Positions 1-13,995 of a stretch of DNA of 15,820 nucleotides are shown in pieces. The first letter of the stretch is position 1; each line of letters begins with the position of its first letter. The notes below the pieces were generated by a model, which saw only the letters and a program-made list of their open reading frames with translations, did no database searches and had not been told where the DNA came from. The position numbers and the translations under genes are program-made. Source of the stretch: Deltaproteobacteria bacterium (GTDB lineage: Bacteria > DRYD01); NCBI GenBank assembly GCA_028276365.1, contig JAPYWL010000030.1, positions 1 to 15,820 of the forward strand, written 5' to 3'.

Positions 1-2071
1 ATAAGGTTCTTTCAATTCCCCTATGGGTAAGCTAAACGAATTAGTACTTCAACACAAGTACCGCAGTTGGAAAACTTTCAATTCCCCTATGGGTAAGCTA
101 AACTACAAAAACCATTGACAATGCTTTTAAAAGAATTAAATCTTTCAATTCCCCTATGGGTAAGCTAAACGCAAATGAGCTAAAACTAATTTTCTTATCT
201 GGACTACTTTCAATTCCCCTATGGGTAAGCTAAACTGTTAATAGTTAACAAAAATTTAACAAAAATTTAATCTTTCAATTCCCCTATGGGTAAGCTAAAC
301 GAATAATTTAAATAATTTAAAAAACGAAATAAGTAACTTTCAATTCCCCTATGGGTAAGCTAAACTAATAGATTTTTTGTCAAGAATAGCAAAAAATATA
401 TCTTTCAATTCCCCTATGGGTAAGCTAAACAAATCTTTCTTTTATAATATCTCGTGGAGTTCGCCACTTTCAATTCCCCTATGGGTAAGCTAAACGGGTT
501 TTTACCAATAACTTCAGGGCTTTTTGAAAAGCTTTCAATTCCCCTATGGGTAAGCTAAACTTTCTTTTATCTCTTCTATTCTGTTTTCAAATATAAACTT
601 TCAATTCCCCTATGGGTAAGCTAAACTTAGATGTTATTAAAAAACTAAAAGATAAGGAGATTTCTTTCAATTCCCCTATGGGTAAGCTAAACTAGGATGG
701 TAGATTTATTTTCAGTGAGTATATTTGACTTTCAATTCCCCTATGGGTAAGCTAAACATATCTCTTTATAAGAATTTTCATTTAAATATTCATTCTTTCA
801 ATTCCCCTATGGGTAAGCTAAACATTTTTGGGTAAAAACCTTTTTAAGAATGGAAATTTAACTTTCAATTCCCCTATGGGTAAGCTAAACAGTTTTATGG
901 AAAAATTTTTATTTCGTAATAGAATTACTTTCAATTCCCCTATGGGTAAGCTAAACATAGTTTTGCTATAGACAATAAAACCTTTAAAACACCTTTCAAT
1001 TCCCCTATGGGTAAGCTAAACTCTCCTTTTACTTAGTGTGTGTGTGGGGGGGGGAGATCTTTCAATTCCCCTATGGGTAAGCTAAACTAAAAAGAAACTT
1101 ACTAAGTAGAAAACCTGATTTAACTTTCAATTCCCCTATGGGTAAGCTAAACTTAGTATTATTTTACTACCAATAGTTTTGCCTTTCTTCTTTCAATTCC
1201 CCTATGGGTAAGCTAAACAAAGAAAAGGGGTTTATAATTCTTTTATTTTTAATTCTTTCAATTCCCCTATGGGTAAGCTAAACTTGAATTAATGAGTAAT
1301 ACTGATATAGAAAAAGAGTCTTTCAATTCCCCTATGGGTAAGCTAAACTTTTTACTAAAATTCCTCCTTTTTTTCTTTATGTTTCTTTCAATTCCCCTAT
1401 GGGTAAGCTAAACCCTACATCAGCCATATTGATTAAAGCTGATGTATAAGCTTTCAATTCCCCTATGGGTAAGCTAAACATGAAAGAGAAAATGAAAATG
1501 AAAAGAAAAGAAAGAGCTTTCAATTCCCCTATGGGTAAGCTAAACCAGCATTTGCTAAATTAGTTATCTTACGACATATTGCTTTCAATTCCCCTATGGG
1601 TAAGCTAAACGAGGCTCCACTACACTAAAAGCGGCTCTTAATCCACTTTCAATTCCCCTATGGGTAAGCTAAACCCTAAAACTCTCTACGATGCTAAGAT
1701 ATCTGATGATTACTTTCAATTCCCCTATGGGTAAGCTAAACCTTATAAAAAACATTTCAAAAAACTTATAAAAACTATCTTTCAATTCCCCTATGGGTAA
1801 GCTAAACACCAACCTAGAATTAAATATTTTAAATGAATATCTCTTTCAATTCCCCTATGGGTAAGCTAAACAAAAAGAAATTGATAAAATACGCAATATA
1901 CTTCATGATCTTTCAATTCCCCTATGGGTAAGCTAAACGAGTAAAATCAAAGCAAACATCTAATTTTAGTTCTATCTTTCAATTCCCCTATGGGTAAGCT
2001 AAACACAAATATATACTTTTTTTAATGATGTAGGTAATTTACCTTTCAATTCCCCTATGGGTAAGCTAAAC
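1..2071 (-). CRISPR. CRISPR array, type I-B, 32 repeats in window, continues past left edge
   Basis: I counted 32 copies of a 29-bp repeat, the first at 9-37 and the last at 2043-2071, separated by 31 complete spacers of 35-38 bp. Positions 1-8 are the end of a further spacer, so the array continues to the left. Every repeat copy I read is identical. On the minus strand the repeat begins GTTTAGCTTACCC and ends GGGGAATTGAAAG; the last eight bases, ATTGAAAG, match the usual 5' handle left by Cas6 in type I systems. This sets the crRNA strand as minus and puts the leader and newest spacers at the right end (newest spacer 2005-2042). The only internal symmetry is CCC-ATA-GGG, so the repeat RNA is likely weakly structured. 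The adjoining I-B cas operon reads the same way toward the array. Spacers are AT-rich like the host and I could not assign their targets. Confidence 0.98.
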
Positions 2072-2377: not shown

Positions 2378-3547
2378 TTAATACTCAATAACAAAAGGAC
2401 TATACTCCTCATCAGAAATTAAATGTTTTTGAATCTTGTACAATTCTAATCTAATTATGTTCCTAAAAGACACATTCCTATTAAGTTTCTTTAATTTAAT
2501 TGTAGTAGATAGCTTTTCTTCTAATAAACTAAGAAATTTCTTCTTACCATCCTCATTTAAATAACAAATTCCAACATCCTCATTAAAATCCGTAGTATTA
2601 ATAACCTTTTTATTTATCAAATTAAATATAGCTCTATCAACTAATATAGGTCTAAATATTTCAGCTATATCTAAATTTAATGAGAATCTCCTAAAAGTTA
2701 CAGAATGTAAAAAACCTATCCTCGGATCTAAATTGGTTTTATATATCTCACTTAAACAAACTGCGTATAAATAAGAATTTCCAAAACTAATTAAAGCATT
2801 TAGGAAATCGGTGGGCGGTCTCTTTGTTCTTTTTTCAAATAAAAAATTCTCATTCTTAATTATTTTATTAAATGATTTATAATAAATTATTTTATAATTA
2901 CCCTCTAAACCTAATAATTTATCTATTTCATTTGTTTCTTTGATTTTTGAGAAAATAGATTCTATATTATTTATATCTTCGTTTAAATCAACATTTCTCT
3001 TAGTGTAGTAATTCAATACTTTTAGAGAATTTAAAATAGCTCCTGAAAGTATAGATTTAGCTAAATATAACCTCTTTTCATTGTTTAAATAATGCTCCGC
3101 CTGCTTAAGAACTATATAGCCTGAATTGTAAAATTCCCTCGGATAATAAGTACCTTCATAATAACCATAATAATTATAAAAATGTATGGGTATTTTATTT
3201 TGAGAAATAAAATCTATAAACTTTTTATTAATATTAACTTCTGAAAATATATGAATATCATTAATTGAATGAATAGGAATATATCGCTTAACTATCTTGG
3301 AATTTTTTTGAGTATCCTCAATTTCTTCCTGGATTTCTAAATCTTGAGAAGTAGAAAAATTATCATAATCTTGTAAAACATTATCGTTAAAGTTTTCATA
3401 ATCTAAAGATGATTTAGAATTTAAAGGATCATCAAAAATATTATTAGTTTCAATATTATCATCAATATTTAAAACTTCCTCAAAATATACTGTATTTTGT
3501 TTCCTTTTTAAATAACCACTTTTAAAAATATATAAAGATTTCTTCAT
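2378..3547 (-). CDS. cas1: CRISPR-associated endonuclease/integrase Cas1, type I-B, with acidic insertion
   Basis: Cas1 is the metal-dependent integrase that, with Cas2, inserts new spacers at the leader-proximal repeat. The start (MKKSLYIFKSGYLKRKQNTV) and the block FYNYYGYYEGTYYPREF (about residues 123-139) are typical of I-B Cas1. The metal-binding residues are in place: Glu215 (LLGLEGN), His281 (GFLH), Asp293 and Glu296 (LDIAEIFRP). The protein is 389 residues where relatives are usually about 330. The excess is a D/E/N/S-rich insertion at about residues 24-86, between the first strands (ending YFEE) and the usual RYIPI/INDIHIFSEV strand; the frame stays open through it. The ATG has only a weak SD. 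cas2 ends 49 bp upstream, and this is the last gene before the leader. Confidence 0.96.
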   Translation of the reverse strand: MKKSLYIFKSGYLKRKQNTVYFEEVLNIDDNIETNNIFDDPLNSKSSLDYENFNDNVLQDYDNFSTSQDLEIQEEIEDTQKNSKIVKRYIPIHSINDIHIFSEVNINKKFIDFISQNKIPIHFYNYYGYYEGTYYPREFYNSGYIVLKQAEHYLNNEKRLYLAKSILSGAILNSLKVLNYYTKRNVDLNEDINNIESIFSKIKETNEIDKLLGLEGNYKIIYYKSFNKIIKNENFLFEKRTKRPPTDFLNALISFGNSYLYAVCLSEIYKTNLDPRIGFLHSVTFRRFSLNLDIAEIFRPILVDRAIFNLINKKVINTTDFNEDVGICYLNEDGKKKFLSLLEEKLSTTIKLKKLNRNVSFRNIIRLELYKIQKHLISDEEYSPFVIEY

Positions 3548-3596: not shown

Positions 3597-3860
3597 TTAG
3601 ATAAAAAAATCCTGTTCTTTTTTTAGAATTCCCATAACATCTTTAACCATATTTTTTTTAGTAGGTAAAACATAAAATATTACTGAATCTTTATCCTTTT
3701 CAATAATATCTGATATTTCCTTTTTTAATTGAAATAACTTAGCTTCTGTTATTTCTCCTTCTAAAACTGAATTCTGGATCCAATTTAAATATTTTCTTGC
3801 ACTTTTTAACACTTTAGAAACTTTATCTTCAGTTACATCATATACCATTATAACATACAT
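3597..3860 (-). CDS. cas2: CRISPR-associated protein Cas2
   Basis: This is the small ferredoxin-fold partner of Cas1 in the spacer integration complex, where it mainly bridges two Cas1 dimers. It has 87 residues, the normal length for I-B Cas2. The N-terminal strand MYVIMVYDVTEDKVSKVLK carries the conserved Asp8 after the hydrophobic strand. The segment KYLNWIQNSVLEGEITEAK is highly characteristic of this subgroup, and the SVIFYVLP strand follows. A good SD (AAGGGGA, about 7 nt spacing) precedes the ATG, and cas6 ends only 12 bp upstream. cas2 is transcribed before cas1, the reverse of the common cas1-cas2 order. Confidence 0.97.
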   Translation of the reverse strand: MYVIMVYDVTEDKVSKVLKSARKYLNWIQNSVLEGEITEAKLFQLKKEISDIIEKDKDSVIFYVLPTKKNMVKDVMGILKKEQDFFI

Positions 3861-3872
3861 AAAATAATCCCC

Positions 3873-4607
3873 TTATTCTTTAACTTCAAACATACCAAAG
3901 CCTTGCGAATTTTTTGATCCCAACCCAGTATTCCAAGCAAATTTTAATATTTCCTCACTCCCACTTATTTTATACATACCTTCATATGAAATTATATAGT
4001 TATTCTTATAAACTATAACTTTTTTATCCCTTTTATTATCAAATTTAAGAAGCTCAATATCAAAATCAAAATTATCTACATTATAATCCTTGTAATATGC
4101 TTTGTATTTTTTTAATAAATTCTGTTTTATTAATTCGTAAAACTTATTTTCATTAGGAGAATAAAAATAAGTTTTCTTATTTATAGTACTATAAACGGTT
4201 ATTGGAGACAAAAGATATATAATATTTTCTTTTTGATTAAAATTAGGAAGTTTAATAACTTCTATAGATTTCAAATATAAAATGTTATCCTCTAATTCAA
4301 AGGAACTTTTCTTTATAAATGAATTAGAAATATCAACTAAAAAGTCATCCAAAACAGAAGATAGGTAAAAAAATATTTCTTTTCCAAAATTAAATTTATC
4401 GTTATTAGAAATACTTGGTTTAGGATATATTTTAGAAAAAACAAATAATTTATAAGCCCTATTGTTAAATTTAAAGCCCTCATTATGTAAAAAATTAGAT
4501 AACTTCTTACTTTTAATGCTGTTATAAATAAAAGATTGTAAAATATAATGATAATGAAAAGATAATTTAATTTCTTTATCTGAGTAAAAAGTAAATTTCA
4601 ATCTCAT
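3873..4607 (-). CDS. cas6: CRISPR repeat endoribonuclease Cas6
   Basis: Cas6 cuts the pre-crRNA within each repeat, here expected just before ATTGAAAG, to make mature crRNAs. The protein is 244 residues with the family pattern: an N-terminal ferredoxin-like part (MRLKFTFYSDKEIKLSFHYHYILQSFIYNSI), the FLHNEGFKF segment with His41 as a candidate general base, a KLFVFSKI strand, and a C-terminal glycine-rich loop GLGSKNSQGFGMFEV (about 228-242) that contacts RNA. The SD is weak, and the ATG falls within a small inverted repeat (4600-4619). It sits between cas4 and cas2 (30 bp and 12 bp gaps), whereas many I-B loci have cas6 at the operon start. The family call is secure; the catalytic residue is inferred. 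Confidence 0.95.
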   Translation of the reverse strand: MRLKFTFYSDKEIKLSFHYHYILQSFIYNSIKSKKLSNFLHNEGFKFNNRAYKLFVFSKIYPKPSISNNDKFNFGKEIFFYLSSVLDDFLVDISNSFIKKSSFELEDNILYLKSIEVIKLPNFNQKENIIYLLSPITVYSTINKKTYFYSPNENKFYELIKQNLLKKYKAYYKDYNVDNFDFDIELLKFDNKRDKKVIVYKNNYIISYEGMYKISGSEEILKFAWNTGLGSKNSQGFGMFEVKE

Positions 4608-4637: not shown

Positions 4638-5186
4638 TTAACTATAACATAAATTATAATAAGCACATTTAAAGCAATATTTATTTTTAGATTCTTTTAA
4701 AGAAGGTGGAATTTCTCTTTGTACTATATTATTTATATTTGTTATACATTTTTTTAGTTCCTTTTCTAATTCATCATTTAGTTCTATGTTTATGCTTCTT
4801 TTTTCCAAGGGTATATATATTTTAGCTTTTAAATTAGGTACATACTTTTTAAGTATAGATAAGTAATAAGCCAATTGCATTGTAGCAGATTTAATAAAAG
4901 ATGAGCTTTTTTTTATTTCTCCCACTATTAACTGGTTTTCTTCTTCCACTTTTATTAAATCTATTTTAACATTTTCTATCAAAAATTCTTTAACATACTT
5001 TTTATTGTAGTATATTTCGTGAATAGTTCTTCCAAATTCAATTAATTCATTTTCTTGATCAGGTATTACATTTCTACTTATAAACCATACCTGCCTTTTA
5101 CATATATAATAATACCAAATTAAAACACCTGTTATTTTTATTTCCTCTACTTTTTCTATAAAGTAATCCCTATATATATCAAATAT
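4638..5186 (-). CDS. cas4: CRISPR-associated exonuclease Cas4, apparent ATA/ATT start
   Basis: Cas4 is an Fe-S cluster, RecB-like nuclease that trims prespacers and helps select the PAM. The C-terminal 114 residues follow a TTG at 4982, but the same frame stays open to a TAG at 5210-5208 and encodes the missing essential part. With the ATA at 5186 as residue 1, there are Cys29 (WYYYICKRQVWF), His56 (FGRTIHE), Asp76 (NVKIDL), Glu90-x-Lys92 (GEIKK), and C-terminal cysteines 171, 174 and 180 (YCFKCAYYNLC). All four cluster cysteines and the RecB catalytic set are therefore present. No ATG, GTG or TTG lies between the TAG and 4982. A strong SD (AAGGAGG, 5200-5194) stands 4 nt before ATT (5189) and 7 nt before ATA (5186). 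The start is thus non-AUG, or has lost its ATG by mutation or sequence error. The length of about 183 residues is normal for the family. Confidence 0.9.
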   Translation of the reverse strand: MFDIYRDYFIEKVEEIKITGVLIWYYYICKRQVWFISRNVIPDQENELIEFGRTIHEIYYNKKYVKEFLIENVKIDLIKVEEENQLIVGEIKKSSSFIKSATMQLAYYLSILKKYVPNLKAKIYIPLEKRSINIELNDELEKELKKCITNINNIVQREIPPSLKESKNKYCFKCAYYNLCYS

Positions 5187-5193
5187 AATAATC

Positions 5194-5200
5194 CCTCCTT
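5194..5200 (-). promoter_or_regulatory. strong SD for cas4 that decides its non-AUG start
   Basis: AAGGAGG is the best ribosome binding site in the operon and lies just downstream of the cas3 stop. It has no ATG, GTG or TTG at a usable distance in the cas4 frame, only ATT, ATT and ATA. The nearest TTG (5182-5180) is in another frame and meets a stop after eight codons. The site therefore supports initiation at 5192-5184. Confidence 0.75.
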
Positions 5201-5219
5201 TAATTTTCTAAAAAATATA

Positions 5220-7742
5220 CTAAAATATTAATAAGTCATTATTTTCAGGAATAAAGCCAGTTTCTAAATCATAGTACTTATCAAGATCTTCATATGATAT
5301 ATATAAAAAATTATTAACTTTTGGTGGTAAATTTTTTTCAGAATAAGTCTTTGAAACATTTATAACATAAGAAAATAAATCATTCTTAATTTTGATTAAT
5401 TCTTGTTTTATTTGTAAATAATTATGGTATTTTTTACTATTTAAAATAGTGCTATATTTTTCCCAAATTTTTTTAGCTTCAGAATCTAATTCAACAAAAA
5501 TAGGATACTCTTTGTAATTTTTCTCTATTAACTTGTTATAACTTACATTTTCAAAATTCAGATAGACAATATTATTTAGTATCTCATTAGATGTCTTATT
5601 ATTTATAGCTTGCTTTAGTTTATTTTTATATTGTTCAAAAATATAAGAGAAATTGCTTTCTGGTATAGATTGATTTTTTAACAAAATATTTTTAGTATTT
5701 TCTAAAATAATTTGATCATATATATAATAGCAATAAAATTTGTTTATATCATTTTTTAATAGAAATACATCTAAAGTGGAAGTATTTTTAGTATAGTTTC
5801 TATTAGTTCTTCCTGCTACCTGTATTATACTATCTAAAGGAGCAAGATCTCTAATAGAATAATCAAAATCAAGATCAACCCCCGCCTCTATTATTTGAGT
5901 AGAAATAACTATTAATAGCTCATTATCTTTATAATTTTTTATTTCCTTTATTCTTTTTAACCTTTCTTTAGGAACAACATGAGAAGAAAGAAAATAAAGT
6001 TTAACATTTTTATTTTCTAATTTATTAATCAAATTTCTATAAAGCTCTTTTGCTGATCCTATTGTATTTAAAACTACCAATAATTTCTTTACTGATTCTC
6101 TATTTATAATTTCTTGTATATAATCTGCTAAATCTTTGATATTTTTATTTTCACTATTTATTTTTACACTTATATTTACTCTATTTAATAATTTAAACTC
6201 TTTTGTAACATCTAAATTATCTAATATTGATTTATAGTTATCTAAGAAAATAGGAGCAGTAGCAGTAGATAAAATAAAATAAGTATTAAAGTAATAAGCT
6301 AATGCTTTAAAAATTTTATCTAAAAACTTATAATATTTATGTGGAATATTTTGAATCTCATCTAATATAATAATAGAGCTAACTAAATTATGAAATCTCA
6401 TTATACTACTTATTTGATTATCAGAAAAACTTTCAAAAAATCTTACAAAAGTAGTAAGAACTATATGTGAATTCCAGTTTTCAGATAATAACTCAGATAC
6501 CAATATATATTCTCTTATTTTTTCTTCTTCTATAAATTCATTTTTATCATAGTTATTAACATCTAAAAGATTTAAAGAATATTCCTTAGAACTTAAATAA
6601 TGATTAGATAAATATAAATAACTCTGAATTTTATTTAAATTAAAAATATTCCTTAAGATATGATCCACCTGATCTATTATACTAATAAATGGTAGGCAAT
6701 AAATTATCTTAGGGTCATAATTATAATTTTCTTTTATTTTTTTCTTTAAGTTAATAGAAAAATAAAAATTAAGTAAAGTTTTACCTAAACCCGTTGGTAA
6801 ATTCATTAAAAACAAATTATCATTAAAATCTACATTATCAATATTCTCTTTTATATAAGTGAATAATTTTTTTCTCAAGCTGTTAATATTTAAATTAATT
6901 TTATCTCCAGAAATAGAATTATCATCCTTAGTTATTTTATTTATATATTTTTCAATTATATAGTAATCAGGAAATTCACTTTTAAAGTAAAATATATCCA
7001 AAATATCCATATTTCCCTTAATACTAACTTCCAATCTATCGGAATATGTTAAAATTGAATAAAAAAGTAGAGAAATAATATAAAACCCTAAGTATTCTTC
7101 TTCCCTAAAATTATTTTTTTCTATAACATCATTTATTTTATATTCACTTAATAATGATGCTCTAAAATATTTAATAAAATTTTTTTCTTTTTCTATTACT
7201 TCTTCTACATTTTTAAGTATATCAAATAAGAAAGGTATTTTTTTAAATTCGTCTTTATACTTTTCAATGTTTTCTCTAATACTAATAAATTGCTTTTGAA
7301 GTATTTTTTTATCTTGTTCATAATTAATTGATATAATATCTCTTAAATTTTGTAAATAAGAATGATGTTTCTTTATAACAATAAAAGATATATAACTTAT
7401 TAAATTCTTTATATCATCATCTATAGAGGACTTATACTGATCTAAATATTTTTTAGTTGCAAAATAAGCAAAAATAGATGAAATTAAGGAATGATGATAT
7501 AATGGATTTGATTTTAACTTTTTTTGATTTTTAGGTTCTTCTTTTAGATAATCTTGAAAATAATTAGTTGATTTTCCTAAATCATGATAAAAAATAATAA
7601 TCTTAATTATTTCTCTTATCTCTTCCTTTGTTAAATTATATATCCTTTTTTTTAGAAAGATATTATTATAAATTTCATTAGCTATTTTGAAAGTATTTTC
7701 TAAGTGATCTATTAGTTTTTTATTAGGATGCGATAATATCAT
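5220..7742 (-). CDS. cas3: CRISPR-associated nuclease/helicase Cas3 (HD plus DExH)
   Basis: Cas3 is recruited by Cascade to degrade target DNA by nicking and then ATP-driven unwinding and cutting. The 840-residue protein carries both domains. The N-terminal HD nuclease has His-Asp at 53-54 (FYHDLGKS), His-His at 83-84 (YHHSL) and 126-127 (KKHHSYL), and an Asp near 235 (YSDRLE). The SF2 helicase has Walker A LPTGLGKT (315-322), motif II DEIQ (461-464), motif III STATAP (492-497), the motif V region STQIIEAGVDLDFD (614-627) and motif VI QVAGRTNR (641-648). The C-terminal part (about 690-840) is less conserved. The start MILSHPNKK is chosen because an ATG 4 nt upstream is out of frame. No motif is lost, so the enzyme should be active. 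Confidence 0.97.
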   Translation of the reverse strand: MILSHPNKKLIDHLENTFKIANEIYNNIFLKKRIYNLTKEEIREIIKIIIFYHDLGKSTNYFQDYLKEEPKNQKKLKSNPLYHHSLISSIFAYFATKKYLDQYKSSIDDDIKNLISYISFIVIKKHHSYLQNLRDIISINYEQDKKILQKQFISIRENIEKYKDEFKKIPFLFDILKNVEEVIEKEKNFIKYFRASLLSEYKINDVIEKNNFREEEYLGFYIISLLFYSILTYSDRLEVSIKGNMDILDIFYFKSEFPDYYIIEKYINKITKDDNSISGDKINLNINSLRKKLFTYIKENIDNVDFNDNLFLMNLPTGLGKTLLNFYFSINLKKKIKENYNYDPKIIYCLPFISIIDQVDHILRNIFNLNKIQSYLYLSNHYLSSKEYSLNLLDVNNYDKNEFIEEEKIREYILVSELLSENWNSHIVLTTFVRFFESFSDNQISSIMRFHNLVSSIIILDEIQNIPHKYYKFLDKIFKALAYYFNTYFILSTATAPIFLDNYKSILDNLDVTKEFKLLNRVNISVKINSENKNIKDLADYIQEIINRESVKKLLVVLNTIGSAKELYRNLINKLENKNVKLYFLSSHVVPKERLKRIKEIKNYKDNELLIVISTQIIEAGVDLDFDYSIRDLAPLDSIIQVAGRTNRNYTKNTSTLDVFLLKNDINKFYCYYIYDQIILENTKNILLKNQSIPESNFSYIFEQYKNKLKQAINNKTSNEILNNIVYLNFENVSYNKLIEKNYKEYPIFVELDSEAKKIWEKYSTILNSKKYHNYLQIKQELIKIKNDLFSYVINVSKTYSEKNLPPKVNNFLYISYEDLDKYYDLETGFIPENNDLLIF

Positions 7743-7776: not shown

Positions 7777-8562
7777 TTACATTATAGTTATATACTTTAC
7801 ATCATCCTTATTAGAAACATTTGAGATTTTAAGAAGCTCCTTTAGCTTAATTTTTATTGATTTCCCATTATTCTCAAAAATATAAGATTTATATTTTTTT
7901 ACTATTCTATTTTCATCCATTAAGTATGCTATTTTTTCTTTATTATAAAATCTCCCTTCTTCTATTTGAATATCTAAGATATTATCACTATCAATAACAG
8001 TAAATATGTCAATATAGTCCAAATTATTAGTTATTTTTTCTATTAACTCATATTCTCCGATAAAATCGAAATTCAATATACAAAAAGCAATCCCCATATA
8101 AGGAGTATAATAAGTATAATTATTTATAAGATATTCTTTTAGTTTTTGATATAATTTATCGTCATTTATAGAAATATATAATCTATACCTGGGGTTTTTT
8201 AATAACTCTATATTCACTTGAGTACTATGAATTTGTATATTATTAACTTTAGATAGATCTTTAAATAAGTTAGTTCTTGTGCCATCTACTTTACAATCTA
8301 ATAGGCTTATTCCAAAATACTGTTTTTCTATTGGATTAATAATCTGTAAAGCACTAATTAAAACATCCTCTGACATCAAATAAAAATAGTCACTATTGCT
8401 TTTACCTGTATTATCTTTTTTTCCAAATCCTATAATAGAGGATATTATACCAACTATAGCAGTTCTTGGAGGAATAGAGTAAGTTAAAGGAGAAGAAGTA
8501 GTATAGTATTTCCTAAAATGCCCATAATCAGAATATATATCAAATGCTAAAAATTTCCTCAT
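7777..8562 (-). CDS. cas5: Cascade subunit Cas5, type I-B
   Basis: Cas5 is the RAMP-fold subunit that holds the 5' handle of the crRNA at the foot of Cascade, next to Cas8. The protein has 261 residues. Its N-terminus (MRKFLAFDIYSDYGHFRKYY, then TSSPLTYSIPPRTAIVGIISSIIG at about 22-45) is diagnostic of the Cas5 amino-terminal domain. The pattern of aromatic/basic residues before a Pro-rich turn and the RTAIVGIIS helix is shared across I-B Cas5. The middle contains TQVNIELLKNPRYRLYI, typical of this subtype. It lies between cas7 and cas3 with gaps of 34 bp on both sides, consistent with one transcript. An AAAAGGA lies about 12 nt before the ATG, a somewhat long SD spacing. Confidence 0.95.
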   Translation of the reverse strand: MRKFLAFDIYSDYGHFRKYYTTSSPLTYSIPPRTAIVGIISSIIGFGKKDNTGKSNSDYFYLMSEDVLISALQIINPIEKQYFGISLLDCKVDGTRTNLFKDLSKVNNIQIHSTQVNIELLKNPRYRLYISINDDKLYQKLKEYLINNYTYYTPYMGIAFCILNFDFIGEYELIEKITNNLDYIDIFTVIDSDNILDIQIEEGRFYNKEKIAYLMDENRIVKKYKSYIFENNGKSIKIKLKELLKISNVSNKDDVKYITIM

Positions 8563-8596
8563 AAAAATTTATAAAATCCTTTTCTACTTTTATTTT

Positions 8597-9520
8597 TTAT
8601 TTTATTTGTATTTCTGATAATGGTATATTTTGGTTTTTTAATTCCTGTATCAAATCAGGTACATATCTTAAATTAGGATTTATTATATATTTTATTTCTT
8701 TAATTTTTTCTTTTTTATTTTTTATAGTTTCTAAGAATTGTGTAAAATCTAAAACATAATCTTCATAAGATCTTATACTTTCTTCAGATTCAATACCTTC
8801 AGCTAATTTAAGCTTAATTTTTTTATCTAAATCTCCTATATGAAAGTTATTTTCTTTATAAATTATTTGAAGTAATAATCTACTTTGTTGTGAAGGTTTT
8901 GATCTCGTTATTAAATTATTAGTTCCATAATAAATTGCTTCAAGAAGATAGTCAATATCTTGCTCTGTTAAACTTGTTTCTTTAGCTACATTTTCATTAA
9001 CTACACCATAAAAGCATACTAAAGAATAAGGTAAAACATAAGTTTCCCAAAAAGTACCTTGAGCTTTACCCTCCCCTGAAGGTAAAACTGTTGTTCCTTT
9101 TATATATTCTATACTAACTCTATGTAAAGATCTACCAAATTTAAACTGTACAGGTCCAGTTAAAGCAAAATTATTATCCTCTATAGCAAAAGTACCTCCA
9201 AATAATCTAATATCTATATATTTTTCTTTTATTTCCTCTATATCCAATTTCTTATTTTTCATATGTTCTTCTATTAATTTTTCTCTTGTCTTTACTTTCC
9301 CATCTTCTGTTTCTTTTCTTATAAGTACTTGTAATTGTTTAAATTTAAGTAAGTAATCTCTTATAGTTCTCTTAAGTCTTACATCTGTTACAATATTATA
9401 ATTATTTTTTTCATCTATCCTTGGTTTATTATCTATAGCATCTCCATTAGGGTTTCCATAGCTAATATCGTATAAAAATATAATCTCACTTCTATTAGCT
9501 ACTATCTTTGAAACACTCAT
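8597..9520 (-). CDS. cas7: Cascade backbone subunit Cas7, Csh2 family
   Basis: Cas7 forms the helical backbone of Cascade that coats the crRNA spacer. The protein has 307 residues. The N-terminal motif YDISYGNPNGDAIDNKPRID (GNPNGD at 22-27) and VTDVRLKRTIRDYL (about 44-57) are signature sequences of the Csh2/Cas7b group. The block VQFKFGRSLHRVSIEYIKGTT follows in mid-protein, and TRSKPSQQSRLLLQIIY is also typical of the family. The ATG overlaps the cas8b stop as ATGA (9520-9517), indicating translational coupling. A clear GAGGAGG SD lies about ten bases upstream, inside the end of cas8b. Confidence 0.97.
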   Translation of the reverse strand: MSVSKIVANRSEIIFLYDISYGNPNGDAIDNKPRIDEKNNYNIVTDVRLKRTIRDYLLKFKQLQVLIRKETEDGKVKTREKLIEEHMKNKKLDIEEIKEKYIDIRLFGGTFAIEDNNFALTGPVQFKFGRSLHRVSIEYIKGTTVLPSGEGKAQGTFWETYVLPYSLVCFYGVVNENVAKETSLTEQDIDYLLEAIYYGTNNLITRSKPSQQSRLLLQIIYKENNFHIGDLDKKIKLKLAEGIESEESIRSYEDYVLDFTQFLETIKNKKEKIKEIKYIINPNLRYVPDLIQELKNQNIPLSEIQIK

Positions 9521-11397
9521 TTTTTATTTTCCTCCTCTTTTTCTATAGTTTCTTTGATTTTATCGTATAAATTCATTCCAAGAACAAAATAATAATTTAG
9601 TTCCTCATTTAATAACCCTGGATATTTATTTTTCCAATTTGTACCTGATTGTAAAAAATAATAACTAATTTTCTCCTTTAATTTCTGTAAATCTTGCTTA
9701 TGAGCTATTTCATATTCATATAACTTATTCTCTAGTTCCCTAAATAAATTCTTAAAATCTGTTTCATTCATTTTTAGATTTCTGATATTCTTTATGAACG
9801 GAATAGAACCTTTGTTTTTTAATTGGTATATTAATAAATATTTTGTTAATATCCCTAATAAAAATATTCCCTTTAATAAATCGTTAGGAAAAGCTTCTTT
9901 AAAACTCTCAAAGAAATTATCTAAACTATTTATTTTAGATAAATTATCCATATTTATTTCCTCCTTTTCTAAAGCAAGATTATCATAGTCCTTTAGGATA
10001 TTTAAATACATAAGCATAAGCAAGAAGATAAAAGTTATATTAACTATTCTTTCTAGTTCTTTTTTTGATCTTTGCTCTTCTTTTTTTAATATTGCCGAAG
10101 ATAATTTATTAAGCCACTCCCTTTGTAAAAACAAAACTAAATTACTAAATATCACTTTTTTTGGAATTAATTTTAAAGTGAAAATATTATTTAGCAAAGT
10201 AAGAAAGATTTTTTCATCATCATTTACTATTTCTTTTAAGTCATCTAATCTAAAATCAATAGAAATTAACAATAATTTTTCTATTTTATTTAATGCTTTT
10301 TCGATTGAAGTTTGAATTTTATGTATATTTGATGGTAAAACACTTTGAATATACATTTTTATCTTAAAAGCATTATTATCTTTTTCATAAAATAAAAAAT
10401 TATAAATAATAAAACTATTTTGTTCAGACAACTCATATAAAATTTCCCGCTCATCTCTTGTTATTCTTTTTATTTGCTTAAGTGTATCTTTTTTATTTTT
10501 AATCAAATTGTTAAAAAAGCTATTAACTAATTCTTGTCGTAATTGTTCATTGGCATAAACAAAAGAAGGTATTAAATAATAATCTATCTTACCTATTCTG
10601 AATGAAAAATATTTTTGAATTATGTTATATCCCTTTCTTATCTTATATATACAATCTAAACATAAAGGAAAATTTTTATACATATCTGATTCCTTAAAAC
10701 CACCTGCTATATAATTTAGCTTATCGAAAGTATAAAACTTAATAGGAAAACCTTTGGAATAAACATTTTTATATTCATTACAAGAAAAACATATAGCTTC
10801 TTCAGGTTTTCCCAAATTTTTTTCAAAATCCTCTATTATTATTTGATCAAAATTATTTAGATCTTTATTTATTGAATCCTTATTAACTAAATTTGCTAAA
10901 TATAAAATTTTATTATTATCTCTTTGAAAAGCAATAGTTAGTAAATACTTGTCTTTTTTATTTCTCTTTTCATTTACTAAATTTTTTATATAATTTTTTA
11001 TAGTTTCTTTTTTTTCTTGTAATTCCTTGTTAATCTCATTAATAAAAGCATAATTCTTATTCTTTAATTTATTAACCTTCGAAATAAAATATTTAAAAAT
11101 TTTTTTTTCTAAAGTTTTTTCTAATTCCGTTAATTTAGCAGTAGGTGTATAATTAGCACCTCCTGATCCTCCAGTTATTAGCAAATATTTTTTCCCATTA
11201 TCTTTTACTTCTTCTATTTCTATACCCTCATATTTATAATTATTTTCATTCAATAGAATTAATATTACTTTGTAATCAGTAGGTATTTCTTCAGCAAGAA
11301 TATCTATTTTTTCGTTTTTTATTATATTTTTTTGAGCTGTAAATATATTTAAGTTTTGAACTTTTATTTCTTGTAAATCCAGAAAACTTTGTATCAT
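9517..11397 (-). CDS. cas8b: Cascade large subunit Cas8b (Csh1/TM1802 type)
   Basis: Cas8b recognises the PAM and recruits Cas3 in type I-B Cascade. The 626-residue protein has the family's zinc-finger pair, Cys203-x2-Cys206 (ICFSCNEYK) and Cys246-x2-Cys249 (PLCLDCIYK), in the Csh1/TM1802 arrangement. A glycine-rich LLITGGSGGANYTPT stretch (about 72-86) lies in the N-terminal part. The C-terminal half is Lys/Ile/Leu-rich and helical, where a small-subunit-like domain would sit; no separate Cas11 gene is seen and one may be made by internal translation (inference). It is the first gene of the operon. I see no good SD before the ATG, and an AAAGGG about 30 nt upstream is too far. Its stop overlaps the cas7 start by 4 nt. 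Confidence 0.93.
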   Translation of the reverse strand: MIQSFLDLQEIKVQNLNIFTAQKNIIKNEKIDILAEEIPTDYKVILILLNENNYKYEGIEIEEVKDNGKKYLLITGGSGGANYTPTAKLTELEKTLEKKIFKYFISKVNKLKNKNYAFINEINKELQEKKETIKNYIKNLVNEKRNKKDKYLLTIAFQRDNNKILYLANLVNKDSINKDLNNFDQIIIEDFEKNLGKPEEAICFSCNEYKNVYSKGFPIKFYTFDKLNYIAGGFKESDMYKNFPLCLDCIYKIRKGYNIIQKYFSFRIGKIDYYLIPSFVYANEQLRQELVNSFFNNLIKNKKDTLKQIKRITRDEREILYELSEQNSFIIYNFLFYEKDNNAFKIKMYIQSVLPSNIHKIQTSIEKALNKIEKLLLISIDFRLDDLKEIVNDDEKIFLTLLNNIFTLKLIPKKVIFSNLVLFLQREWLNKLSSAILKKEEQRSKKELERIVNITFIFLLMLMYLNILKDYDNLALEKEEINMDNLSKINSLDNFFESFKEAFPNDLLKGIFLLGILTKYLLIYQLKNKGSIPFIKNIRNLKMNETDFKNLFRELENKLYEYEIAHKQDLQKLKEKISYYFLQSGTNWKNKYPGLLNEELNYYFVLGMNLYDKIKETIEKEEENKK

Positions 11398-11571: not shown

Positions 11572-13995
11572 ATGGAATTAGATAAACTAAAAGAATTAAT
11601 TTTAAGTAGATTATTCTTTATTTTAGGTGCTTTATTAATACTAATAGGTGTAGGATATACCTTAGCAGAAAAACTAAAAGATAACCCAATTATTCTTAGT
11701 ATAATAATATTCTTTTTAGGGTTACCTTTTATAGCTCTACCTTATAAATATAAATCCAAATTATCTAATTTTTTCTTTATAGGTTTCCAGGTAATAGGAT
11801 TATCTATCTTATATTTAGATACTATCTTATCAGCAGTAGTATTTAACATTATACCCCTTACTTATTCACTCATAATAGTATTCCTTATTAGCTTATTAGG
11901 AATAGCTTTATCAATTATTAATAAATCAAATGAATTAATGATATTATCCACTATAGGGGTTTATTCCTCAGTTATATTCCCCGATATCCCTCTAAACCAA
12001 TACCTAAATAAATTCCTAATATTTACTACCTCAATAAATCTATTAATAACTATTAGTTCATTACTGATAAAAAAAGTAGAGGTAAGATATATAAACCTAT
12101 CCTTCTTTATATTAGCAGTTATTGTATTTTTCTTTTTAAAAGGTATCCAATTTAATCAAGAATATATACCTAAATTAGCTGTATTTTTTACAATAAACTT
12201 CATATTATTCTACATTAATTCCATAATAGGTATTATAAAAGAATCCAAAATGGAAGATATAATTTATTTTATATTGGTAAATGTCGTTTATTATTTGGTA
12301 ATAGTTTCATTAATTAAACTATACGATTTTACATATAATCCATCATTAGCAAATATAAGTAAAAATATGATTTCATTTTTCTTTAGTTTTATATTTACAA
12401 TATTTATTTCATTAAACTATTGGTTTTTTTCAAAAGGAGAAAAAACAAACATAATATGGGCATATTACAATATGCTAATATTATTTATAGGATTAACCTT
12501 AGGAACCTTATTAAGTTATTCATATTGGTTAATTTCCTGGTTAATAGTAAGCGTAGTATCAATATATATTTATACACTTAATAAAAATCCTGAATATAAA
12601 GATCTTTACGTTTCTTCTTATATTTTCTTTCTTATTTTATTTATTTTATATTACATAGTTTCATTTTCAGATCAAGAAAGAATAATATTTATAATATCTA
12701 CTTTCTTACTAAATATATTAGTAATCTATATGAATTTAAAATTACCATCTCAAGAGAGAATCGTTAATTTAGCTAATTTAAAATACTTACTAACGTTCAT
12801 TATAGGCTTACTAATTTTAATTATTTCAGGTTTTTATTCATATAGTATAAATACCAATGAAGAGGACATAGTAAATACTATAAGAATTATTAACATTTTG
12901 CTTACAATTATTGTAATTTTCAGTATTTTGTTAAAATCTTCAGATAACCTAACTAAAACACTAATTTTGTTAGCTTCTCCATTCATTTGCGGAGTTATTT
13001 TTATTATTTTCTTCTTGATTTGGGATCCTCTATCAAATATCCTTATTTTTTCAATACTCCTTTTAACTACTCTCGTTATTCTAATAGGAACAGATAATAT
13101 ATTAAAATTCTATAACCAATTAATGCAAGAAACATCTTTAAATAATATAAAAATCTTTAATCTCCTTAATTTAGCAAATAAAATCAACCTAATGTTTATA
13201 TCTATAATACTTCTAATAGAATTATTAAAGATAGAGTACATAGATAATTTAAATAGATTCTACCTTATATTAGCAGTTTATAGTATAATATCAATTGCTT
13301 TAATTGTTTTATATATGTTATCAAAAGAAAAAGATATGCTAATCTATTTTAAATACAGCTTAATTATATACTACATTTTAATTTTTATATTTTTAATACA
13401 TTTATTTTATCCATTATTAGTATTTGAACATTACCATAGAAGTTTTATTTCTTTTTCAAGTCCTATTTTAAATCTAAGAGCAGCAAGCTATATATTACTT
13501 ATATTTAATTCAATTTTAATTTACTATTTAGTTAATAGATATAAAATGGAAGAAGATTTAACACCTACAGAGATAATTATAAAAGATAATACTTCTAAAA
13601 ATACTATATTAAGTATATTTATATTATTACTAATATTAGTTATTCAGGAAATATTTGATTTAACTTACAGACTAAATATAAAAGAATCACTTATAACGAT
13701 AACTGTTTTAATAATAAGTAGCATATATGGTACAGCTTTAGGAATGTTATATAAAAAAGATAATAATTTAGTTTATTTAAGAGATGCATCTTTTTTAATT
13801 CTCGGAATAATAATACTATTATTAGTAAGAGCTTATTTAAGAGGAATAGAAAATTTTACAATATTATTAATAATAACTGGTATATATTTAGTATTATTTA
13901 GCCCTATATTAAGTCCTAAAAATATAACATCTACTGAAGATAATTTAAAAAATATACAACAAGAAACTCCTGAAAATGAAAACACCACCCCTTAA
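11572..13995 (+). CDS. large polytopic membrane protein, DUF2339-like
   Basis: This 807-residue protein is almost entirely hydrophobic, with roughly 25 predicted membrane segments from residue 14 to about 780 and a hydrophilic C-terminal tail ending ENENTTP. The N-terminal part (LFFILGALLILIGVGYTLAEKLKDN, then GFQVIGLSILYLDTILSAVV and a helix pair before ELMILSTIGVYSSVIFP) follows the order typical of DUF2339 membrane proteins, whose function is unknown. That similarity is from pattern recognition, not a search. A strong SD (GGGGAGGTG) lies 7 nt before the ATG. The gene diverges from cas8b and is followed by AT-rich hairpins. Nothing in it suggests a CRISPR role, and adjacency may be incidental. 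No catalytic motif is visible. Confidence 0.85.
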   Translation: MELDKLKELILSRLFFILGALLILIGVGYTLAEKLKDNPIILSIIIFFLGLPFIALPYKYKSKLSNFFFIGFQVIGLSILYLDTILSAVVFNIIPLTYSLIIVFLISLLGIALSIINKSNELMILSTIGVYSSVIFPDIPLNQYLNKFLIFTTSINLLITISSLLIKKVEVRYINLSFFILAVIVFFFLKGIQFNQEYIPKLAVFFTINFILFYINSIIGIIKESKMEDIIYFILVNVVYYLVIVSLIKLYDFTYNPSLANISKNMISFFFSFIFTIFISLNYWFFSKGEKTNIIWAYYNMLILFIGLTLGTLLSYSYWLISWLIVSVVSIYIYTLNKNPEYKDLYVSSYIFFLILFILYYIVSFSDQERIIFIISTFLLNILVIYMNLKLPSQERIVNLANLKYLLTFIIGLLILIISGFYSYSINTNEEDIVNTIRIINILLTIIVIFSILLKSSDNLTKTLILLASPFICGVIFIIFFLIWDPLSNILIFSILLLTTLVILIGTDNILKFYNQLMQETSLNNIKIFNLLNLANKINLMFISIILLIELLKIEYIDNLNRFYLILAVYSIISIALIVLYMLSKEKDMLIYFKYSLIIYYILIFIFLIHLFYPLLVFEHYHRSFISFSSPILNLRAASYILLIFNSILIYYLVNRYKMEEDLTPTEIIIKDNTSKNTILSIFILLLILVIQEIFDLTYRLNIKESLITITVLIISSIYGTALGMLYKKDNNLVYLRDASFLILGIIILLLVRAYLRGIENFTILLIITGIYLVLFSPILSPKNITSTEDNLKNIQQETPENENTTP

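Follow-up and report, generated by a model that had tools for sequence, protein, structure and literature searches.

The cas4 gene of a type I-B CRISPR-Cas operon in an uncultured AT-rich bacterium is probably intact, with translation beginning at a non-canonical AUH codon (AUU, AUA or AUC), most likely the AUA at 5186-5184, with the help of an unusually strong Shine-Dalgarno (SD) sequence. The window, meaning the whole 15,820-nt stretch of DNA analysed, is contig C84 of a draft metagenome-assembled genome (MAG) of 1.59 Mb in 124 contigs, estimated to be 87% complete (G000). Because several unrelated genes of the lineage share the AUH habit, we favour genuine non-standard initiation over a broken gene.

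An intact cas4 frame without a canonical start before its conserved N-terminus

All type I-B components are present in the window, as the operon cas8b-cas7-cas5-cas3-cas4-cas6-cas2-cas1 plus an array. The order cas4-cas6-cas2-cas1 is common to both genus members, the other being the sister-species MAG CAKZQG01 (G001). The features used below are as follows.

9..2070, no strand: CRISPR array of 31 repeats, each ~29 nt long, spaced 64-67 nt apart (approximate end)
2378..3547, minus: cas1b, ATG start, acidic insertion of ~50 residues near the N-terminus
3597..3860, minus: cas2, ATG start
3873..4607, minus: cas6, downstream of cas4, ATG start
4638..5186, minus: cas4, 182 aa when read from the proposed AUA start to its TAA stop
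4980..4982, minus: TTG, first canonical in-frame codon of cas4 (false start), would yield a 114-aa truncated Cas4
5184..5186, minus: ATA, likeliest start codon, 7 nt after GGAGG
5187..5192, minus: ATT ATT, alternative start codons, at spacings of 4 nt and 1 nt
5194..5201, minus: Shine-Dalgarno sequence AAAGGAGG, duplex energy -15.8 kcal/mol (96% of surveyed genes have a weaker one)
5208..5210, minus: in-frame TAG, upstream end of the cas4 frame
5220..7742, minus: cas3, upstream of cas4, stop TAG 5222-5220 in the cas4 frame
7777..11397, minus: cas5b, cas7 (Csh2) and cas8b/TM1802, type I-B effector genes, all with ATG
Cas4 Fe-S cysteines (numbered from the AUA): Cys 29, 171, 174 and 180
Cas4 RecB-type residues (numbered from the AUA): Asp76, Glu90-x-Lys92, Gln104/Tyr108

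Direct reading of the minus strand gave a cas4 frame of 5207-4638, closed upstream by the TAG at 5210-5208 and ending at the TAA at 4640-4638. The codons that follow the TAG are AAA ATT AAA GGA GGG ATT ATT ATA TTT GAT ATA TAT, and the earliest in-frame ATG, GTG or TTG is the TTG at 4982, beyond both the N-terminus of the catalytic domain and the first Fe-S Cys. The sequence-only reading had reported no ATG, GTG or TTG before 4982, and re-reading the frame gave the same coordinates. The window cas3 and cas4 share a frame and are separated by two TAG codons 12 nt apart (5208-5222), an arrangement absent from G001.

The full frame matched Pfam Cas_Cas4 (PF01930) with 156.9 bits over residues 21-183 of 184, compared to 94.6 bits for the version started at 4982. 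Likewise, the full protein scored 78.1 against NCBIfam TIGR00372 and passed its cut-off of 65, while the 114-residue version scored 57.4; the earlier warning that annotation from 4982 would give a truncated Cas4 was thus well founded. All four Fe-S cysteines are intact, the first near the N-terminus and the other three C-terminal (C31, C173, C176 and C182 in the 184-residue frame), and they were invariant in an alignment with eight relatives, as were the nuclease residues D78, E92-x-K94, Q106 and Y110. In a broader alignment-based scan for cas4, which gave 80 loci, the first Fe-S Cys was aligned in 80/80. A Cys29 and a His56 had been named as the essential N-terminal residues of this protein; the Cys is indeed invariant, but the aligned His varies, with Ser or Asp in some relatives and Ser in the Cas4 proteins of the sister genus. 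Identity to the G001 Cas4 was 43/65 upstream of 4982 versus 63/112 downstream. This conservation indicates that the segment upstream of 4982 is real protein. Gene callers that accept only NUG starts, as used on MAGs, would truncate Cas4 and drop its first Fe-S ligand, making a working adaptation system seem defective.

Elsewhere in the locus, the acidic low-complexity insertion of ~50 residues in the N-terminal domain of Cas1 (window 3300-3490, minus strand) is also found in G001. The G001 cas1 (L019:2085-3201, minus strand) is frameshifted within this insertion, through an error or in reality, and the window cas1 is intact. Adjoining the cas operon at 11572-13995 (plus strand) is a gene for an 807-residue multi-pass membrane protein, for which Pfam gave no match at E 0.001.

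A strong Shine-Dalgarno sequence placed for an AUA start

The SD sequence AAGGAGG noted earlier at 5200-5194 is real and extends with A5201 to AAAGGAGG, which is complementary, without interruption, to the 16S 3' end of the sister genome (GGATCACCTCCTTTCT). Its duplex energy falls within the top 3.6% of 330 canonical genes. Counted from GGAGG (5198-5194), the candidate codons lie at 7 nt (ATA 5186), 4 nt (ATT 5189), 1 nt (ATT 5192) and 10 nt (TTT). In the 86 G000 genes that carry a GGAG-type SD, distances to the canonical start peak at 5-10 nt, with only three of 4 nt or less; since 7 nt fits the peak and shorter spacings are rare, ATA 5186 is likeliest to be the start, with ATT 5189 second. 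A start at the out-of-frame TTG 5182-5180 was rejected, as its +1 frame meets a stop after 8 codons.

In the mechanism that we propose, the unusually strong SD would position the 30S subunit on the cas4 mRNA and would make up for the weak codon-anticodon pairing that initiation factor IF3 normally discriminates against. We infer that initiation would then occur at the AUA itself, read by fMet-tRNA, giving a Cas4 that begins fMet-Phe-Asp-Ile-Tyr and is one residue longer at its N-terminus than the sister-species Cas4, which starts with ATG. By analogy with Staphylococcus aureus, output from this codon is perhaps a tenth to a third of that of an AUG version. In infC and several other genes, the lineage appears to rely on the same device, a strong SD paired with an AUU, AUA or AUC codon.

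cas4 start codons in relatives

The phylum sample comprised seven genomes, G000 included, in which G001 belongs to the same genus as G000, four genomes to the family and one to the order. The G001 cas4 starts with ATG and reads ATT ATG GAT ATA TTT AAA GAC TAT, and the same stretch of the window reads ATT ATA TTT GAT ATA TAT AGG GAT TAC. The window ATA matches the G001 ATG if TTT is taken as an inserted codon (a one-codon gap), and TTT itself aligns equally well. It had been proposed that a conserved ATT or ATA in relatives would support the non-canonical start; in the closest relative this fails, with an ATG after a very weak SD. As the sole other genus member has ATG, AUA is not conserved in cas4. 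The SD of the G001 gene reaches only -3.6 kcal/mol, so that start codon and SD strength seem to be traded off between the cas4 genes of the two species, as would be expected if the AUA is truly used.

The 5' end could be resolved in 79 of the 80 Cas4 loci of the broad scan, and in all but two of these the first Cys is preceded by a canonical start; a third locus, related to those two, had only a badly spaced TTG. A single-protein Cas4 scan of genome contigs and viral contigs gave no match. Three related clostridial MAGs from digesters carry AUH codons at one homologous position of cas4 (ATA in L085 and L086, ATC in L122), with strong SDs (-14.8 to -17.0 kcal/mol) 10-11 nt upstream and Cas4 proteins that are 82-87% identical; in L086 a badly spaced TTG lies four codons downstream of the ATA. 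Their start loci are as follows.

L085:260: cas4 start, clostridial digester MAG
L086:2983: cas4 start, clostridial digester MAG
L122:2983: cas4 start, clostridial digester MAG

This conserved AUH start is a separate case from that of the window. Overall, AUH starts were found in 3/79 cas4 genes, all in one clade, versus 1 in ~194 cas1, cas2, cas3 and cas6 genes, and none was found in cas1, cas2 or cas3 of the broad-scan loci, bar one frameshifted cas1. We therefore rejected selection for AUH specific to cas4 across bacteria, the single clostridial clade giving no clear enrichment over other cas genes. One clade and one cas6 suggest that AUH starts arise repeatedly, and do not show them to be a habit of cas4. 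The cas6 in question, from a Clostridia MAG (L107), appears to be AUU-started after GGGGGGTGTAA; its frame begins ATT ATT CAT ATT GAA and reaches a first canonical start only at codon 36.

AUH starts in other genes of the lineage

We surveyed stop-to-stop frames over 596 kb of the 1.59 Mb of G000 and 1.34 of the 1.9 Mb of G001, which yielded 361 and 428 conserved genes with a closed 5' end, respectively. Most of the frames flagged as lacking a start were antisense frames, overlaps with rRNA or tRNA, transposon fragments or frameshift fragments, and these were removed by hand. Only 3/361 G000 genes, cas4 included, combined a strongly conserved N-terminus upstream of the first canonical start with an AUH codon placed by an SD. 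A fourth is infC, read separately, which starts with ATA in both G000 and G001 and with ATC in the sister genus, each at a spacing of 9 nt; the parallel with infC that the sequence-only reading had drawn thus extends to the organism's own gene. The start of a zinc-ribbon/PrsW-like protease gene is GGAGGGATAATTT-ATT in G000 and GGAGGGATAATCT-ATT in G001, where the sister genus has ATG, and an ABC permease gene has ATT in G000, ATA in G001 and ATG in the sister genus. The coaD gene starts TGGAGGTTAATAAGT-ATT in G001 and ATG in G000.

GGAGG was present in 5/6 of the AUH-start survey cases versus 115/716 canonical genes (Fisher p = 0.0006), and SD energies also differed between AUH and canonical genes (Mann-Whitney p = 0.003). 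Taken with the spacing and conservation in cas4, these genes support the earlier proposal that its translation would start on AUA (or AUU) off the strong SD. Putative AUU, AUA and AUC starts account for ~1% of surveyed genes, among them genes of CRISPR adaptation and coenzyme A synthesis. Two AUU-start genes are known in Escherichia coli (PMC9410913), compared to four AUH genes in ~362 of G000, a comparison that is only indicative as the methods differ.

Both genus members also have an rnpA-like gene (L181:2081-2505 and L229:19342-19770, both minus strand) with weak RnpA scores. In both species an ATG-started conserved stretch (MKFKI..FY.K.LS.KQ.DFF) leads to a T9 tract, after which the RnpA-like frame resumes in -1. 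This looks like conserved slippage or frameshifting.

A possible lineage-wide relaxation of start-codon selection

We tentatively suggest that start-codon selection is relaxed throughout this small, uncultured lineage of phylum rank, with a diverged C-domain of IF3 maybe the cause, although we hold this less probable than its opposite. The IF3_C scores of the family (48-56 bits, whereas the best match in each of 52 other genomes scored 66-136) were the lowest among 57 genomes, split or second copies aside. In five family members (infC L014-L018) the conserved IF3 segment R-x-R/K-G-R has become Q-L-L/I-G-K; it reads RFRGRE, MFRGRE or RFKGRA in solved IF3 structures and QLLGKS, QLIGKS or QLIGKA in the family. 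In E. coli, arginines of the IF3 C-domain help the factor to bind the 30S subunit and to keep start selection accurate. In fidelity mutants of IF3, initiation at non-canonical codons increases 3- to 15-fold (PMC5472188). We hypothesize that the diverged IF3 lies behind the AUH starts of the lineage. An altered initiator tRNA was rejected, both genus members carrying a standard initiator with GGGCTCATAACCC. The anti-SD also looks standard, judged by the 16S 3' end of the sister genome; no 16S end was found in G000. If selection is indeed relaxed, gene finders restricted to NUG would mis-annotate the lineage systematically, and if AUH starts are common in it, the lineage would offer a natural case for how SD strength and IF3 set start stringency.

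Alternative explanations

An ATG, GTG or TTG of the true population sequence could be hidden by an error in the assembly or its consensus, or by a minority variant. The window is one contig of a fragmented and incomplete draft MAG, the sister species has ATG at the cas4 start, and AUH cases seen in a single genome, such as coaD, could share this cause. Errors would not, however, favour genes with a very strong SD (p = 0.0006, as above), nor would they place AUU or AUA at a homologous position in two independent MAGs, as in the zinc-ribbon/PrsW-like gene, the permease and infC; moreover, cas1, cas2 and cas3 of the draft loci in the broad set do not lack starts, one frameshift excepted. Because of this SD strength, and because the two species have AUH starts in common in other genes, we consider an error unlikely. 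Still less probable is the loss of the start codon in an emerging pseudogene, or a truncated protein made from the TTG at 4982. The NUG start is gone and that TTG is in frame, but the gene is otherwise undamaged: it has no stops, keeps every Fe-S cysteine, and is conserved in its upstream part at least as well as in the rest. A truncated product would lose the Cys present in all 80 relatives and fall below the cas4 model cut-off, and was rejected on the grounds of conservation and cysteine content. We give almost no credence to UAG suppression across 5222-5220 and 5210-5208 that would produce a Cas3-Cas4 fusion. The two genes share a frame in the window, with about 33-36 nt from the cas3 stop to the ATA; they lie in different frames in G001, two stops would have to be passed, and a near-perfect SD right after both would be pointless. 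The fusion was rejected on the frame shared in the window and not in the sister species.

A further proposal concerns the purpose of AUA initiation; it is a sub-reading of the explanation that we prefer, and its probability overlaps with that of the latter. The AUA could be a deliberate throttle that holds Cas4 at a lower level than Cas1-Cas2 and is possibly controlled by IF3, like the starts of sigR in Streptomyces (GUC) and ccpN in S. aureus (AUA). In a type I-C complex the Cas4:Cas1:Cas2 ratio is 2:4:2 or 1:4:2, with Cas4 sub-stoichiometric to Cas1 (PMC6519985), and given these ratios less Cas4 would be needed; in Streptomyces, stoichiometry is set through IF3-sensitive starts, IF3 repressing initiation at a non-canonical codon (PMC5472188). 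The AUH cas4 starts of the clostridial clade also fit a throttle. On the other side, the sister-species cas4 has no AUH start, AUH is not clearly enriched in cas4, and the cas4 SD is the strongest of the operon (-15.8 kcal/mol, versus -2.7 for cas1, -8.6 for cas2, -1.3 for cas6 and -12.3 for cas7), which raises output and makes a low net yield of Cas4 doubtful. Because of this SD, output need not be lower than that of the neighbouring genes, and the earlier suggestion that Cas4 is throttled relative to Cas1-Cas2 found no support; as the G001 cas4 has an ATG after a very weak SD, throttling is unproven. The strong SD may merely compensate for the weak codon, and we regard a deliberate throttle as doubtful, at perhaps one chance in a few.

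Comparison with known systems

A limited literature search found no non-NUG cas4 start and no AUA-start CRISPR gene. The closest parallel is S. aureus, where AUA and AUU starts with extended SDs, mapped in 2026, give ~10-30% of AUG expression, reduced but real, in infC (AUA), cvfC1 (AUU), ccpN (AUA) and citZ (AUA) (PMC13009471). Like these genes, the window cas4 has AUA/AUU at an ordinary distance from a very strong SD, and the infC of its own genome also has AUA. For the S. aureus starts, however, the mapping came from ribosome profiling, and related species conserve several of them, whereas the AUH start of cas4 is read from sequence and the sister-species cas4 is not AUH. The infC and pcnB genes of E. 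coli (AUU) resemble cas4 in having a near-cognate start that differs at the third position and is discriminated by IF3; infC, though, is autoregulated by its own product, for which there is no known reason in cas4. Streptomyces sigR likewise has a non-canonical start in a co-transcribed set with stoichiometry at stake, but its codon is GUC rather than AUH, is IF3-repressed and conserved across Streptomyces, and its regulation was tested in vivo (PMC5472188). In relation to other type I-B Cas4 proteins (PF01930, TIGR00372), the window protein is the same Fe-S RecB-type nuclease with its ligands intact, and it too is encoded in an operon of type I-B cas genes; what differs is the start codon, and the order cas4-cas6-cas2-cas1 seen in both genus members. 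With respect to the AUH, strong-SD class, cas4 has no NUG upstream of its conserved N-terminus and has an SD at 7 nt; a supporting rather than defining trait, an AUH kept in close orthologs, is absent, since G001 has ATG, although the separate clostridial clade does keep AUH in its cas4.
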